Positions 11,699-35,314 of a stretch of DNA of 36,909 nucleotides are shown one piece after another. The stretch lies in contig JAISUL010000046.1 of NCBI GenBank assembly GCA_031272145.1, positions 1 through 36,909 on the forward strand, written 5' to 3'. The notes under the pieces were generated by a model that did not search any database, was not told the DNA's origin, and saw only the letters and a list, made by a program, of their open reading frames with translations. The translations under genes were made by a program, and so were the position numbers. Origin of the DNA: Synergistaceae bacterium. Its GTDB lineage: Bacteria > Synergistota > Synergistia > Synergistales > Aminobacteriaceae. Positions within the stretch are counted from its first letter, which is position 1. Each line of letters starts with the position of its first letter.

Positions 11699-11732
11699 GG
11701 CAGGGCTGCCGCTTGGCAGCCCTGCCTTTCTC
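11699..11732 (+). terminator. Intrinsic terminator of the oxidoreductase gene
   Basis: Perfect 12-bp stem GGCAGGGCTGCC / GGCAGCCCTGCC with a 4-nt loop (11699-11726), followed by TTTCTC. It lies 19 nt after the stop codon and separates this gene from the convergent membrane-protein gene. Confidence 0.85.
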
Positions 11733-13332
11733 ACGTCTTGGGGACGAATGTTCTCGTGGGGACGGCTGTCCTCTGCGACATCACCAGCCACCACACAGCC
11801 CGAAGGTAATTCCTCGGTACTCCGGCGCCAATGGCGTAGAGCCGGCTTAGCCTTCGGCAGGCGTGGGCGCTCTCGTACCCTCCGGCCTCGGCCGTCTCCA
11901 AGTACAGCGCCGCGGCCTTAGCGTTGTCCTTCGGCACCCCATCAACGGGGGCGAACGTGCTGTCGTAGGCCTCCGCAAGCATAAACGCCTCGTCCTCCGC
12001 GGTCGGCATCGCCGTTATCGACCTCACGCCGAAATATTTCGCCATGCTGTGGTTCTTCCAGTCGTTCGGGAAGGGGCGGATGTCCGAGAAAAACAGCAGC
12101 CTAGGCCTGACGGTCAACGCCGCAACAGTTATGTCCTCTTTTCCTTCGCCTTTTTGTTCATCTATGCTCAATATCCGCTGCCTCATCTCGGCGTTGTACT
12201 GAGGCGCGATTTTCAAATCTGACAGCAGCTGAACGACGTTGGGGTTCGCAAGCAGGCAAACGGCGAGAATTCCCCAGCGCCAGCGGTAGATTCCCCAACT
12301 CCTGATTCTCGATATTACGGCGTCGTTTCGGTAGAAGAACGCCCACATGGAGACCCAGCACGCCGCCATGATCCACAGGGCGAGTGACTCAGATCTGGCC
12401 GGAAGCCCCGCTCCCATCGCCCAGCCGCCGATGGCCTGCTGAAACGGGGCCAGCACTGCCGTGACCGCGACGATGTGCCACGCCCTCAGATTGGGCATGC
12501 CCAGCGGGTCTTGCTTTTGCGCTATGTCTGGCAAGAACAGCAGAGGTGCGTATACTATTGGGGATATGAAGAACTTCACGGCTGTTATCGCGCCGAAAAT
12601 AACTGCGACTCCGGCGGTCTGGAAGAAATTCTTGGCGAGGTCGCCGGATACTGCCATTCGCGCAGCCGTCCTAGGCGACAGGTACATCAGCAGGAACGCA
12701 GCCAGAGCCGCAGCGAACGCCGTCCCGACCGTCAGAGCTGAGAAAGAATCCGACACCCCAAGCGGCCGCATCCGAAAATAACGCACGGTTAGACAGAACA
12801 GCAGCAGCATCTGTATAATGCAGGTCTGCTCCAAGATAGTGCCGCCTAGGAACACGCACAGCGGCAGGACGAAAAACGCAGTCCATTTTTCGCGTCGACT
12901 CAGGGCGCGAAGCAGCAGCGCCGCGCACATAAGGGACACCGCTGCCGTCCACGTGTACGGCATGCCGCAGAGCCAGTAGAACGTCTCGTTGAGTGACGGA
13001 ACGAAGGCTAGCCACGCGGCCAAAAGAACGAGCGAGGCCGAAACCGCACCGCCGGAGTTCGGGAGGGCGCGAAGCAAAAAGAACAGCGACGCGAAGACCA
13101 GAGCGGCGTTGATAAGCGGCAACAACGGATATATGTTTTCTATGCCGGCGTAACAGGCCGCCGAGACCAAGAACGTGTTGGCCGTGCGCCCTGAAAGCCA
13201 TTGTGACGCCCCAAAACCGTTTTCGATGACATCGCTGGCAAAGGCGAAGTCGTCTGCCTGAGGGTGGGCGTAGATTCCGAGGAAGCAGAACGCCGCGACA
13301 AGCAGCGCCGAGAGCGCAGCTGCTATGCGCAT
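11731..13332 (-). CDS. Multi-spanning membrane protein (DUF6056/GtrC-like) with a C-terminal Sel1-type repeat
   Basis: A 533-residue protein with an N-terminal membrane helix, an early acidic motif HPQADDFAFASDV, and about ten further hydrophobic segments up to residue ~360. This layout resembles the DUF6056/GT-C-type putative glycosyltransferases. The soluble tail contains a Sel1-like repeat (ALYLETAEAGGYESAHACRR, LYAIGAGVPRNYLRAVWWL). Its ATG abuts the stop codon of the upstream methyltransferase with no gap, and a GtrB-like gene precedes that. I infer a membrane glycosyltransferase using a GtrB-made prenyl-linked sugar; the enzymatic role is unproven. Confidence 0.6.
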   Translation of the reverse strand: MRIAAALSALLVAAFCFLGIYAHPQADDFAFASDVIENGFGASQWLSGRTANTFLVSAACYAGIENIYPLLPLINAALVFASLFFLLRALPNSGGAVSASLVLLAAWLAFVPSLNETFYWLCGMPYTWTAAVSLMCAALLLRALSRREKWTAFFVLPLCVFLGGTILEQTCIIQMLLLFCLTVRYFRMRPLGVSDSFSALTVGTAFAAALAAFLLMYLSPRTAARMAVSGDLAKNFFQTAGVAVIFGAITAVKFFISPIVYAPLLFLPDIAQKQDPLGMPNLRAWHIVAVTAVLAPFQQAIGGWAMGAGLPARSESLALWIMAACWVSMWAFFYRNDAVISRIRSWGIYRWRWGILAVCLLANPNVVQLLSDLKIAPQYNAEMRQRILSIDEQKGEGKEDITVAALTVRPRLLFFSDIRPFPNDWKNHSMAKYFGVRSITAMPTAEDEAFMLAEAYDSTFAPVDGVPKDNAKAAALYLETAEAGGYESAHACRRLSRLYAIGAGVPRNYLRAVWWLVMSQRTAVPTRTFVPKT

Positions 13333-14034
13333 CTAAAAGTCCTCCCTAAAGTATATGTCCCCGCCGACCGGGGCGCAGTGGAACGTCCCCTCGCGCAGCG
13401 GCGCCATTTCAAACAGAAACGAGTGGACGTACGGGAAAAACCGCGCGTGAAGGTCGAACGTGTAACGATACGGGCGCTGCATCGGCACGACGATTATCAG
13501 GCGCTTGGCGGCCACGCGGCGAAGCTCCCGCACCGCCGTCTTGAAGTCCAGCACGTGCTCTAAAACGTGAGTGCATATCACGGTGTCGAACTCCCCAGGC
13601 GCGAACACCGAGGAAAAATCCGAGACGGAGGCGCGGACAAACCTAACTCCGCCCAACTCGCCCGGAGCCGCCATATCCGCCGCCGTGACGGATGGGATAA
13701 ATTCACTTAGCTTGCGAGCTAGAAATCCGCGCCCGCACCCGGCGTCCAGAGCGGACGAGCCCAGCACGTCGCCCAAAATCGCTGCGACGCATGCCCTGTT
13801 CAGGTCAGTCTCGCGCGGCATGTGGAAGCTCGCGGTCTCCTCGTAGAACGCCGCGTACTCCTCAGGCGTCATCATGGGGAGCCGCTCCTTGAAGTCCATT
13901 ATCTTCTCGGCCTTCTCGGAAAACATCATCCGCATCAGCGGACGCATAAACGCCCGGCAGTCCCGGAGCACAGGCGGAAGCAGCTGATCCAGAACGAAGT
14001 GAATCTTCAGCGTGAGGTCGCGGCTCAGTTTCAT
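13333..14034 (-). CDS. SAM-dependent class I methyltransferase in a glycan module
   Basis: A 233-residue protein with SAM-binding motif I SALDAGCGRGFLARKL, motif II-like VTAADMAA and the HVLEHVLDFKTAVRELRR segment, a Methyltransf_11/25-type fold. It sits between a GtrB-like glycosyltransferase and a membrane protein, so a sugar-modifying role is likely but inferred. I give the ATG at 14034 (TGGAG 9 nt upstream). An alternative GTG at 14103 overlaps the gtrB-like stop as GTGA, has GGGAGG 10 nt upstream, and reads in frame through the (TA)10 tract into this protein. That makes the 5' end a candidate phase-variable region, currently in frame. Confidence 0.75.
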   Translation of the reverse strand: MKLSRDLTLKIHFVLDQLLPPVLRDCRAFMRPLMRMMFSEKAEKIMDFKERLPMMTPEEYAAFYEETASFHMPRETDLNRACVAAILGDVLGSSALDAGCGRGFLARKLSEFIPSVTAADMAAPGELGGVRFVRASVSDFSSVFAPGEFDTVICTHVLEHVLDFKTAVRELRRVAAKRLIIVVPMQRPYRYTFDLHARFFPYVHSFLFEMAPLREGTFHCAPVGGDIYFREDF

Positions 14035-14059: not shown

Positions 14060-14080
14060 ATATATATATATATATATATA
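14060..14080. repeat. (TA)10 dinucleotide microsatellite
   Basis: An uninterrupted alternating A/T tract of 21 nt in otherwise GC-rich DNA, between the gtrB-like stop (14100) and the methyltransferase ATG (14034). From the GTG at 14103 it encodes alternating Tyr-Ile. Loss or gain of one unit shifts that frame and also changes an AT-only region that could act as a -10 element. Confidence 0.95.
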
Positions 14081-14099: not shown

Positions 14100-15011
14100 T
14101 CACTTCTCAAAGACCTCCCTCACGACGTACACCGGCCTGTTCTTGCTCTCGATGTACGTCCGCCCGACGTACTCGCCGAGTATCCCTATGCCGAGAAGCT
14201 GCAGGCCGCCGAAGAGCAGCGTCAGGCACAGCTGCGAGGCGTAGCCAGGGAGCTCGATTCCGAAAATCAAAGTCCTGAAGAATATGAACAGCCCGTAGGC
14301 GAAGGCGCAGGCGGATATGAAGCCGCCGACGTAAAGCCATATAGTGAGCGGCGCGGTGCTGAACGACGTGATGCCCTCGACGGCGAACTTCCAAAGCCGC
14401 CACCCGTTGAACTTGCTTTTGCCTCTAGCGCGGGCGCGGCGCGTGTAGGGCACGACGCAGGTTCTGAAGCCAGCCCACGCGAAGATGCCCTTCATAAAGC
14501 GGTTCTGCTCGCGCAGGCCTTTTATGGCCTCGACGACGCGGCGGTCCATCAGGCGGAAATCCCCGACGTCCTCTGGCAGGCCGACGCGCGAAATCCTGTC
14601 GTGGAAGCGGTAAAAGAGCCGTGCGGTCGCGCGTTTGAGGAAGCTATCGCTGGATCGGTCGGCGCGCCGCATCAGGACGACCTCGCAGCCCTCGCGCCAC
14701 TTGGCCAGCATTTTAGGGATTAGTTCTGGTGGGTCTTGCAGATCGGCGTCTATGGGGATCACCGCCTCGCCTGAGGCGTAATCGAGCGCCGCGGTCAGGG
14801 CTGCCTCTTTGCCGAAGTTGCGCGAGAGGTCTATGACCTTGATTCGCGCGTCGGCTCGCGCCCTGGTGAGTAAGGTGTCGAGCGTGGCGTCGGTGCTGCC
14901 GTCGTTGACGAAGACGATCTCAAAGGGCAGAGCAAGCCCCTCCAGGATCGACAGCGTCTCGCTCAGGAAGTCTGGGATGGCCTCCTCCTCGTTAAAGACC
15001 GGTACAAGCAT
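14100..15011 (-). CDS. GtrB/DPM1-like prenyl-phosphate glycosyltransferase (GT2)
   Basis: 303 residues from the ATG at 15011. The GT2 domain begins MLVPVFNEEEAIPDF, with FVNDGSTDAT and the DxD-type IPIDADLQDPPELI; the RGKSKFNGWRLWKFAVEGI segment and two C-terminal membrane helices (about 230-255 and 268-288) are typical of GtrB. Such enzymes load a sugar from a nucleotide donor onto undecaprenyl phosphate at the cytoplasmic face. The first beta-strand appears to begin before the ATG (AVSM in the same frame), and no good ribosome-binding site is spaced for it. A strong start lies upstream at 15145 in another frame, separated by heptamer repeats (see findings). Confidence 0.88.
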   Translation of the reverse strand: MLVPVFNEEEAIPDFLSETLSILEGLALPFEIVFVNDGSTDATLDTLLTRARADARIKVIDLSRNFGKEAALTAALDYASGEAVIPIDADLQDPPELIPKMLAKWREGCEVVLMRRADRSSDSFLKRATARLFYRFHDRISRVGLPEDVGDFRLMDRRVVEAIKGLREQNRFMKGIFAWAGFRTCVVPYTRRARARGKSKFNGWRLWKFAVEGITSFSTAPLTIWLYVGGFISACAFAYGLFIFFRTLIFGIELPGYASQLCLTLLFGGLQLLGIGILGEYVGRTYIESKNRPVYVVREVFEK

Positions 15012-15023
15012 AGAGACAGCACA

Positions 15024-15045
15024 GTGGCTCCGTGCTCCGTGCTCC
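15024..15045. repeat. GGAGCAC heptamer repeat
   Basis: On the minus strand: GGAGCAC, GGAGCAC, then GGAGCCAC (one inserted base). Seven is not a multiple of three, so unit changes alter the reading frame crossing it. Confidence 0.85.
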
Positions 15046-15049
15046 GCAC

Positions 15050-15055
15050 ATTATA
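15050..15055 (-). promoter_or_regulatory. Possible -10 box upstream of the GtrB-like gene
   Basis: TATAAT on the minus strand with ATGCCA (4 of 6 to TTGACA) at a 17-nt spacing. It lies inside the upstream reading frame, so either this promoter or the upstream start may be the functional one. Confidence 0.4.
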
Positions 15056-15292
15056 ACGGCCTCCTTTCTGGTTGGCATCCGTAAAATTACTGAATTTTTC
15101 GGCATCAGGGACGTTGGCGGCGTCCGCCGCGCTATTCGTGTTCATGTTGCTGTTTCCTCCTGCCCGAATTTTGGACGCAAAGGGTCTAAGACCCCCTTAC
15201 CCAATGACGTATTCTACCCGCCTTTCGGCGTAAACGCAAGGGGTCAGGATTTTTTTGTGCTTCTAGTCGATTTTCCGTGGTATAATCCTCTA

Positions 15293-15610
15293 TGGAGGCT
15301 CCGAGTGACATCGGGGCGTAGGGGGTAGTCACCCCCGAGGCTTAGCCCCGCAAACGAAGGGGGGTGAGGCCAATGGGTAGAAGGCACAAGAGCACCGCAG
15401 TTGTTCCGCGGACAACGCTGATTTGGATTAGTGAGAATGACCGTCATTCTTCGTCGACGACCTTGATCTATGAAAAAAGGGTTGCCCAACTTCTTGGACA
15501 ACCCTCGTCTCTAAGTTGCTGCAAGCCCTAGTCCGGCTTTTAGCTCGCTAGGGGCGTAAGTCCCGGCTGAGTTACCAGCCCGGCCGGGCAGCCCTACCTC
15601 GGAGCCTCCA
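15293..15610 (+). ncRNA. Candidate structured RNA or miniature inverted-repeat element of unknown family
   Basis: The ends are perfectly complementary over 13 nt (TGGAGGCTCCGAG at 15293-15305 and its reverse complement at 15598-15610). A TATAAT box at 15281-15286 ends 6 nt before the 5' terminus, where transcription would begin. Inside are several hairpins: GGGGG-TAGTCA-CCCCC nested in GGGGC/GCCCC, GTTGT/ACAAC, GAATGA/TCATTC, AGGGTTG-type (15478-15505), GCCCTAG/CTAGGGGC and GGCTG/CAGCC. A 52-codon frame (15373-15531, MGRRHKSTA...) with a GGGGGGTGA start signal is also present. I find none of the landmarks of RNase P, tmRNA, SRP or 6S RNA. A MITE is the main alternative; no clear target-site duplication is visible. 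Confidence 0.5.
15473..15505 (-). terminator. Minus-strand intrinsic terminator inside the structured element
   Basis: Stem of 12 pairs (15478-15489 with 15494-15505, one G-U in the minus-strand RNA) and a 4-nt GAAG loop, followed on the minus strand by a run of T (15478-15473). It would stop any leftward transcript entering from the right end of the element. Confidence 0.65.
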
Positions 15611-32496: not shown

Positions 32497-32528
32497 GGGC
32501 AAGCGGGCAAGCGGGCAAGCGGGCAAGC
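32497..32528. repeat. GGGCAAGC octamer repeat (four units)
   Basis: Four exact tandem copies of GGGCAAGC followed by GGGG, directly downstream of the -10 box and ~55 nt before the first gene. No reading frame passes from the tract into that gene (TAA, TAG or another stop intervenes), so any effect would be on transcription start or leader RNA. Confidence 0.95.
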
Positions 32529-32582
32529 GGGGCGATAGCTGTCTCCAATTAACCTTTCCATATAACCACCCTAGCCGGGCAG

Positions 32583-34567: not shown

Positions 34568-35314
34568 ATGCACGGCAACGAGCTTTCAAGTCTTTACAAG
34601 AACAGGTTTTCCTACCCCGACGCCACATCGCGCCGCAACGCGGTTTGGAAGGAGATAGTAGCCTGCGGCCTGCAGAGGTTCATCAAGGAAAACGACACAG
34701 TGGTCGACGTGGCCTGCGGCTACGGCGAGTTCATCAACAACGTCAGGGCAGGGCGGAAGATCGCCGTCGACCTGAACGCCGACTCCGCCGAGTACCTGGA
34801 CGGCGGCATAGAGTTCTACTGCCTCGACGCCCTCTCTATGTCGCAGTCGCAAAGCCTGCTGGGCGTGGCCGACGTAGTCTTCACCTCGAACTTCCTCGAA
34901 CACCTGCCGGACAAGTCCGCGGTGCTGCCGTTCTTGAACGAGGTTTCGGCGGTGCTGAAGCCGGGCGGCAGGTACATCACGATGGGGCCGAACATCCGCT
35001 ATTGCGCCGGCGAGTACTGGGACTACCTCGACCACAACGTGCCGCTCAGCTCCGCCTCAGTCACGGAGGCGCTGCAGATTTGCGGCTTCGCGATCGTCCA
35101 CACGACCGAGAGGTTTATCCCCTATTCGTTCAAGGGCTTCATGACAAGCAGCGCCCTCTCCTCTCCTCTCCTCTCCTCTCCTCTCCTCTCCTCTCCTCTC
35201 TCCTTCCATTATATCACTCCTCGCCAGGGTGTACTTGAAGGTGCCGCTGTTTTGGAGGTTCTTGGGGAAGCAGTTTTTGATCGTGGCGGAGAAATGCAGT
35301 GGATGATTCCTTAA
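34568..35314 (+). CDS. SAM-dependent methyltransferase with an internal CTCTC tract, C terminus currently out of frame
   Basis: 248 residues in the frame present. SAM motif I is VVDVACGYGEFINNV, followed by SNFLEHLPDKSAVLPFLNEV and LKPGGRYITMGPNI. At residue 197 it enters a CTCTC x9 tract translated as repeated LSSPL, then an unconvincing tail (FHYITPRQGV...). In the +1 frame the DNA after the tract reads LLARVYLKVPLFWRFLGKQF then LIVAEKCSG and stops at 35306, which looks like the real C terminus of this family. Ten units (or seven) would join the two. The third frame stops early at 35238. ATG 34568 has AAGGAGG upstream. Confidence 0.85.
   Translation: MHGNELSSLYKNRFSYPDATSRRNAVWKEIVACGLQRFIKENDTVVDVACGYGEFINNVRAGRKIAVDLNADSAEYLDGGIEFYCLDALSMSQSQSLLGVADVVFTSNFLEHLPDKSAVLPFLNEVSAVLKPGGRYITMGPNIRYCAGEYWDYLDHNVPLSSASVTEALQICGFAIVHTTERFIPYSFKGFMTSSALSSPLLSSPLLSSPLSFHYITPRQGVLEGAAVLEVLGEAVFDRGGEMQWMIP
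35156..35200. repeat. CTCTC pentanucleotide repeat, nine units
   Basis: Nine uninterrupted CTCTC units (45 nt, 15 codons) inside the methyltransferase gene. Five is not a multiple of three, so each slipped unit changes the downstream frame. This is the classic form of a phase-variation tract. Confidence 0.97.

Follow-up and report, generated by a model that had tools for sequence, protein, structure and literature searches.

A likely repeat-mediated translational switch before a GtrB-type glycosyltransferase gene in Synergistaceae

Phase variation of glycan genes driven by repeats is well established. The lic genes of H. influenzae, for example, have two starts in different frames, as does the locus described here. 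In the same species, heptamers located about 100 bp upstream of hmw1A and hmw2A modulate expression, and two alternative transcription starts have been suggested (PMC2651432). AGAT repeats are found in the 5' UTR of uspA2 (PMC4679880). Frame transitions have been sorted into phase variation and translational coupling (PMC3711429). No phase variation in Synergistota or Fretibacterium was found in the literature searched; most subscription papers lay outside the scope of this search, and the result is not proof of absence. The combination of phase variation, translational coupling, and a repeat tract gave no match in the literature searched, and a term search of PMC11868660 was also without a match. 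Repeat-mediated translational phase variation is itself known. What is probably new, judged without repeat-number or expression data, is its occurrence in Synergistota and the layout of the cassette.

The window (the whole stretch of DNA that was analysed, 36,909 nucleotides) is contig C2 of a Synergistaceae genome of 2.05 Mb in 107 contigs. It is likely to contain a simple-sequence-repeat contingency locus by which a GtrB-type glycosyltransferase is switched during translation; slippage, translation of the leader, and the on/off effect are inferred.

Anatomy and reading frames of the locus

The features of the locus are listed below from upstream to downstream.

15211-15239, minus strand: candidate upstream promoter P1, inferred from the consensus only (TTGCGT at 15239-15234, 17-nt spacer, TAGAAT at 15216-15211)
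15161-15156, minus strand: Shine-Dalgarno AGGAGG of leader start A, 10 nt upstream of the ATG
15145-14963, minus strand: leader frame A from ATG 15145, 60 aa, crossing the array and currently out of the enzyme frame
15071-15086, minus strand: conserved module core TTTTACGGATGCCAAC, recognized by its recurrence across the genome
15050-15078, minus strand: embedded promoter-like element P2 (ATGCCA at 15078-15073, 17-nt spacer, TATAAT at 15055-15050)
15060-15067, minus strand: Shine-Dalgarno AAAGGAGG of start B
15049-15051, minus strand: start B, an ATG 8 nt downstream of AAAGGAGG
15046-15027, minus strand: heptamer array of 20 bp, 2.9 perfect GGAGCAC copies (CGGAGCACGGAGCACGGAGC), the third copy continuing as GGAGCCAC
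14100-15026, minus strand: frame of the GtrB-like polyprenyl-phosphate glycosyltransferase, taken from the array edge (HCAVSMLVPVFNEE...), with ATG 15011 as the first start in frame
13333-14034, minus strand: SAM methyltransferase, gene 2 of a likely operon (Pfam Methyltransf_11, 1.4e-11)
11731-13332, minus strand: DUF6056 membrane protein, gene 3 of the likely operon (Pfam DUF6056, 6.2e-17)

The glycosyltransferase matches Pfam Glycos_transf_2 (5.6e-31), and its top PDB matches are GtrB structures with 44-47% identity over the whole length. Naming the enzyme GtrB is correct, as it is a GT2 domain with the GtrB fold and sequence. An (AT)10.5 tract at 14060-14080 separates its stop from the methyltransferase ATG 14034. 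A terminator-like hairpin with a T run lies at about 15480-15510 on the minus strand (within 15280-15510), and TGGTATAAT is found on the plus strand near 15285. No match was obtained in an Rfam search of the window.

An earlier reading, made from the sequence alone, had stated that ATG 15145, preceded by AGGAGG, opens a frame which crosses the heptamers out of the enzyme frame, that the enzyme frame is open back through the repeat, and that one added heptamer joins the two. All of this holds. The exact stop upstream of the enzyme frame is TAA 15053-15051, and the distance from 15145 to 15011 is 134 nt, which becomes 141 with one more unit. The same reading gave ATG 15011 no well-placed ribosome-binding site, and indeed there is no Shine-Dalgarno match. 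No ATG, GTG, or TTG exists in the enzyme frame between ATG 15011 and the TAA. The observation itself (repeat, starts, and frame relations) is thus confirmed. What had been overlooked is start B (ATG 15051), the adjoining TATAAT, and the recurrence of the module elsewhere in the genome. By frame arithmetic, removing one unit or adding two brings start B into the enzyme frame, a rule opposite to that of start A, for which one unit has to be gained. With the present three units, neither leader start is in frame with the enzyme.

ATG 15011 is probably not the native start, as judged from the N termini of homologues and from the modelled first strand. Among 80 fetched homologues, the position of M15011 is occupied by Leu in 50, Ile in 25, Val in 3, and Met in 2. 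In every one of the 80, a start codon in frame lies further upstream. The Synergistaceae homologues (L031-L037) start three codons earlier (MIS-I/L...). It had also been suggested that the first strand begins upstream of ATG 15011, which holds in the AlphaFold2 model (mean pLDDT 82.5): with numbering from the array edge, strand beta-1 comprises residues 4-10 and M15011 is number 6. A start at M15011 removes two residues of this strand. Because most of the strand is kept, it remains possible that a working enzyme is made from ATG 15011.

Rumen-type GtrB orthologues (L032-L036) have arrays 42-54 nt upstream of the start. These arrays are built from five different units, each 7 or 8 bp long, and vary in length. 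In the four orthologues that could be assessed, the array begins 0-2 nt from TAAAAT, with TTGACA upstream. No array is found in L031 (F. fastidiosum) or L037. Homologues starting at the equivalent of 15011, or a fixed repeat, would have refuted the sequence-only reading. Neither is the case, given the earlier starts of the Synergistaceae homologues and the varying unit and length of the orthologue arrays, which are differences at the species level only.

Other repeats are present in the window and in the genome. (CCTCT)9.2 is located at window positions 35155-35200, inside a methyltransferase ORF (34568-35314). Because a plausible methyltransferase C-terminus (LARVYLKVPLFWRFLGKQFLIVAEKCSG) exists in another frame past this array, this gene may also be phase-variable. 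(GGGCAAGC)4.4 at 32497-32531 directly follows TACAAT, with TTGCAA 17 nt upstream, and precedes a UbiA-family prenyltransferase whose start is ill-defined. The lipoprotein genes L152 and L195 (on C13 and C46) are paralogues. In both, TTGACA-16-TATACT is followed by one and the same octamer, repeated 2.4 and 4.1 times. These lipoproteins have glycine-rich stretches near their N termini.

Recurrence of the module, the arrays, and the -10 hexamers

The 50 bp upstream of the window array are 94% identical at C31, where they stand directly before (GGTCAGC)5 and another GT2 enzyme. Copies of the module core were located by pattern searches and classed as having at most two mismatches or three mismatches. 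The first class comprises eight distinct places. An array lies within 75 nt at seven of these (C2, C31, C68, C38, C105, C16, and C59 near 1396), and only C59 near 7163 is without one. Only one of the 27 places with three mismatches has an array (C29; Fisher 9e-6). In seven of the eight best copies, a 4-, 7- or 8-bp array is followed by a glycosyltransferase or methyltransferase. At C31, C68, C38, C105, and C59 (near 1396) the enzyme frame begins at the array, no credible start exists between the array and the conserved domain, and a possible leader start is found upstream of the array. At six loci (C68, C38, C59 twice, C29, and C16), a leader start with a Shine-Dalgarno match lies at -42 or -43 nt relative to the array. 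Only C105 among the six fusion-type loci is currently in frame, from an ATG without a Shine-Dalgarno sequence. Frame A has no standard start at C31, and leader A is therefore not conserved there. When the leader peptide was searched for in this genome and 38 relatives, only two weak hits (E 0.11 and 0.14) were found beyond the window and C31, one of which is a different protein. The TATAAT of P2 ends 3 nt upstream of the heptamer array in the window; its -35 is weak there and likewise at C31 and C68.

The array excess in this genome is not due to chance. Period-7 arrays of this stringency are observed 9 times in 585,329 sampled bases, compared with 0.25 in Markov-3 copies. Perfect arrays tallied in 826,694 bases comprise 26 of period 4, 5, 7, 8, or 10, which fall in 20 places, and 60 of period 6 or 9. 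A TATAAT-like hexamer adjoins 14 of the 26 arrays with non-triplet periods and none of the 60 others, leaving 12 non-triplet arrays of this genome without an adjacent -10. When arrays were shifted as a control, -10 adjacency had a mean of 0.87 and a maximum of 5 in 400 trials. In two rumen-type genomes, 6/15 and 10/15 arrays have an adjacent -10 (shifted means of 1.39 and 1.67), and TTGACA is usually located 16-18 nt upstream of it. Non-triplet arrays are nearly absent from Fretibacterium fastidiosum (G005), which has a GtrB of 69% identity: only five are present in 400,000 sampled bases. As for arrays of period 6 or 9, samples of about 400,000 bases from two related rumen genomes contain just 3 and 2, compared with the 60 in this genome.

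Three criteria for a translational simple-sequence-repeat contingency locus, all judged from sequence, are fulfilled. A perfect array, beyond chance and with a unit not divisible by three, exists between start and ORF. By frame arithmetic, a change in unit number shifts the gene in or out of frame with a start bearing a Shine-Dalgarno sequence. Association with surface-structure genes is also found: these encode GT2, GT4-like, FkbM, and UbiA enzymes, plus enzymes named by eye from their translations.

A parallel cassette is found in a related genus, in the order upstream -10, AAAGGA, leader start, embedded TTGACA/TATAAT, and array. The predictive pattern AAAGGA-N1-5-TTGACA-N16-18-TATAAT, built without any repeat content, matched 29 of 81 family genomes (28 in one genus and 1 in another). 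The reversed pattern has no match in the 81 family genomes, and the forward pattern has none in the window's genome. An array exists immediately downstream at 25 of 30 readable pattern sites (18 heptamers and 7 pentamers), compared with 2 of 86 other TATAAT in the same loci (p = 3e-18). Note that the 25/30 include five loci from assemblies already met (L298, L308, L310, L316, and L321), without which the count is 20/25, and that one site at a locus edge was left out. A start codon is open to the -10 at 28/30 pattern sites. A Shine-Dalgarno sequence and a start open through the -10 are found at 11/16 array sites vs 2/43 array-less promoter-like sites (p = 1e-6). A second TATAAT occurs 40-105 nt upstream at 15/25, and none occurs in the three bins further upstream.

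In eleven genes of the related genus, the gene's own frame extends back to the array without a stop. The first in-frame start is 28 to 82 codons past the array in seven of them and 11 to 19 in the other four, and two (L306 and L320) are in frame with the AAAGGA-preceded leader start. That fusion-type genes always have a decayed -35 was considered and rejected; this is true for the window's genome only, and the related genus keeps TTGACA. A 37-bp leader/promoter stretch is common to L310 and L322, from different genomes. In one it precedes a pentamer array of CCACA, in the other a heptamer array of ATCGCCT. Possibly the array can be swapped while the cassette persists.

For genes with their own start, translational coupling is possible. 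In the first set of loci, the post-array frame stops at the gene's own start in 19 of 22 cases, with 7.3 expected. Some gene starts in this set were chosen by hand, and L259 and L275:12879 (start unclear, later fusion type), C46 (paralogous to C13), and C5 (gene truncated at the contig end) were left out. In new loci, from which the five already-met loci named above were left out, the count is 9/19 vs 5.7 expected (p = 0.07). A uniform test of 'coupling or fusion' (29/34 vs 181/226) is not significant. Being weak in the replicate and not significant in the uniform test, coupling was dropped as a common rule. At the present repeat number, the leader ends near the gene start at 7/20 own-start loci, four of them with a Shine-Dalgarno match. 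L035 was rejected as a coupled locus, as its leader is out of phase.

Proposed switch and alternative explanations

In the proposed switch, transcripts from the upstream promoter would carry the leader. Ribosomes would start upstream of the array, at ATG 15145 or ATG 15051, and translate through the heptamers. Slippage would alter the unit number, and the enzyme would be reached in only one of three phases: start A would be in register at four units and start B at two (or five). A glycan phenotype is inferred to follow from the switching of the enzyme. Because neither leader is in frame, and because ATG 15011 has no ribosome-binding site and trims the strand, the assembled three-unit state is inferred from the sequence to be off or low, which is likely. 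The locus would belong to a set of cassettes before surface-sugar genes, having a leader start, a promoter-like element touching the array, and an array of period 4, 5, 7, or 8. The enzyme gene after the array would be either without its own start (fusion type) or with its own start near the stop of the post-array frame (possible coupling type).

The anatomy, recurrence, frames, and statistics are shown by sequence. The earlier interpretation as a translational switch is supported mainly by loci outside the window, and slippage is undemonstrated. No strain, read, or expression data stand behind the switch model. The window array, with 2.9 copies, is shorter than most here and may slip rarely. 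Moreover, transcripts from the embedded promoter would begin within the array, past the leader start, which is not explained by the switch model. With a promoter-like element adjoining the array, a transcriptional contribution may exist and is not excluded. A bolder reading is conceivable, in which the translated leader spans an embedded -35/-10 and the DNA melted at this promoter coincides with the beginning of the array. Transcription initiation would then drive slippage, and the new frame would decide between fusion into the surface-sugar gene and a stop at its start.

An unlikely explanation is that the repeat tunes transcription or the 5' UTR. Positions 15078-15050 would be a working promoter, transcription would start in the array, the enzyme would be made from ATG 15011, and the repeat number would change the 5' end (length, structure, stability, or promoter escape). 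In its favour, arrays adjoin -10 hexamers much more often than chance would give, both in this genome and in two relatives; in the relatives, most of these hexamers have TTGACA 16-18 nt upstream. Some leaders encode Tyr-Asn with the hexamer, and at other sites it is read in different frames, implying that it is conserved as DNA. There are also precedents in hmw1A/hmw2A (PMC2651432) and in the AGAT repeats of the uspA2 5' UTR (PMC4679880). However, enzymes without a start past the array would be untranslatable from such transcripts, no period among the -10-adjacent arrays is divisible by three, the conserved upstream Shine-Dalgarno sequence and start are left unexplained, and the -35 in the window is weak.

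It is also possible, although not the favoured outcome, that both layers operate. P1 transcripts would carry the leader and the frame switch, and P2 would give a second, leaderless output or act on the array. This overlaps the translational switch, and the two could hold at once. In the related genus, an array-proximal promoter does occur together with a distal -10, and TTGCGT-17-TAGAAT and ATGCCA-17-TATAAT are both present in the window, but these promoters are consensus matches only. An ordinary chance repeat before a gene normally started at 15011, or a decayed start, is very unlikely. Consistent with it are the shortness of the array, an enzyme that is intact when read from 15011, and Met at that place in 2/80 homologues. 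Against this, the module recurs with other arrays before other enzymes, arrays are in excess, and the homologues (80/80) start further upstream.

Relation to known systems

If the translational switch is true, Synergistota, a little-studied phylum of rumen and mouth, would have a large set of independent surface-sugar switches. Their geometry of leader, promoter-like element, and array is fixed and unusual. The embedded promoter raises a testable question, that is, whether transcription initiation sets the rate of repeat slippage. Enzymes without their own start codon would be mis-annotated by gene finders.

The window enzyme resembles GtrB of PDB 9nyc and 5ekp in fold and in sequence (44-47% identity over the whole length). 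Unlike those, it has genes for a methyltransferase and a DUF6056 protein downstream. The TAACTGA arrays of Beggiatoaceae are likewise numerous intergenic heptamer arrays upstream of starts, but they have one constant stop-containing unit and no evident pattern of gene function (PMC4679880). The uspA1 and uspA2 genes of Moraxella catarrhalis are likewise surface genes with transcribed repeats in front of them, in the stretch from promoter to start codon; the relevant sections of PMC4679880 report neither a leader nor a dependence on frame. As in hmw1A and hmw2A, heptamers occur here upstream of a surface gene. While those genes have essentially one unit and a described effect on transcription, the cassettes considered here have many units, a leader start, and frame dependence. 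Another likeness is to the simple-sequence-repeat switches of H. influenzae LPS, Campylobacter, and Neisseria, in which non-triplet units exist between the start and a surface-glycan enzyme. Unlike those systems, the present one belongs to the phylum Synergistota and has 5-, 7-, and 8-bp units of many sequences in a dispersed leader cassette, promoter-like hexamers that touch the array, and several enzymes without their own start codon.
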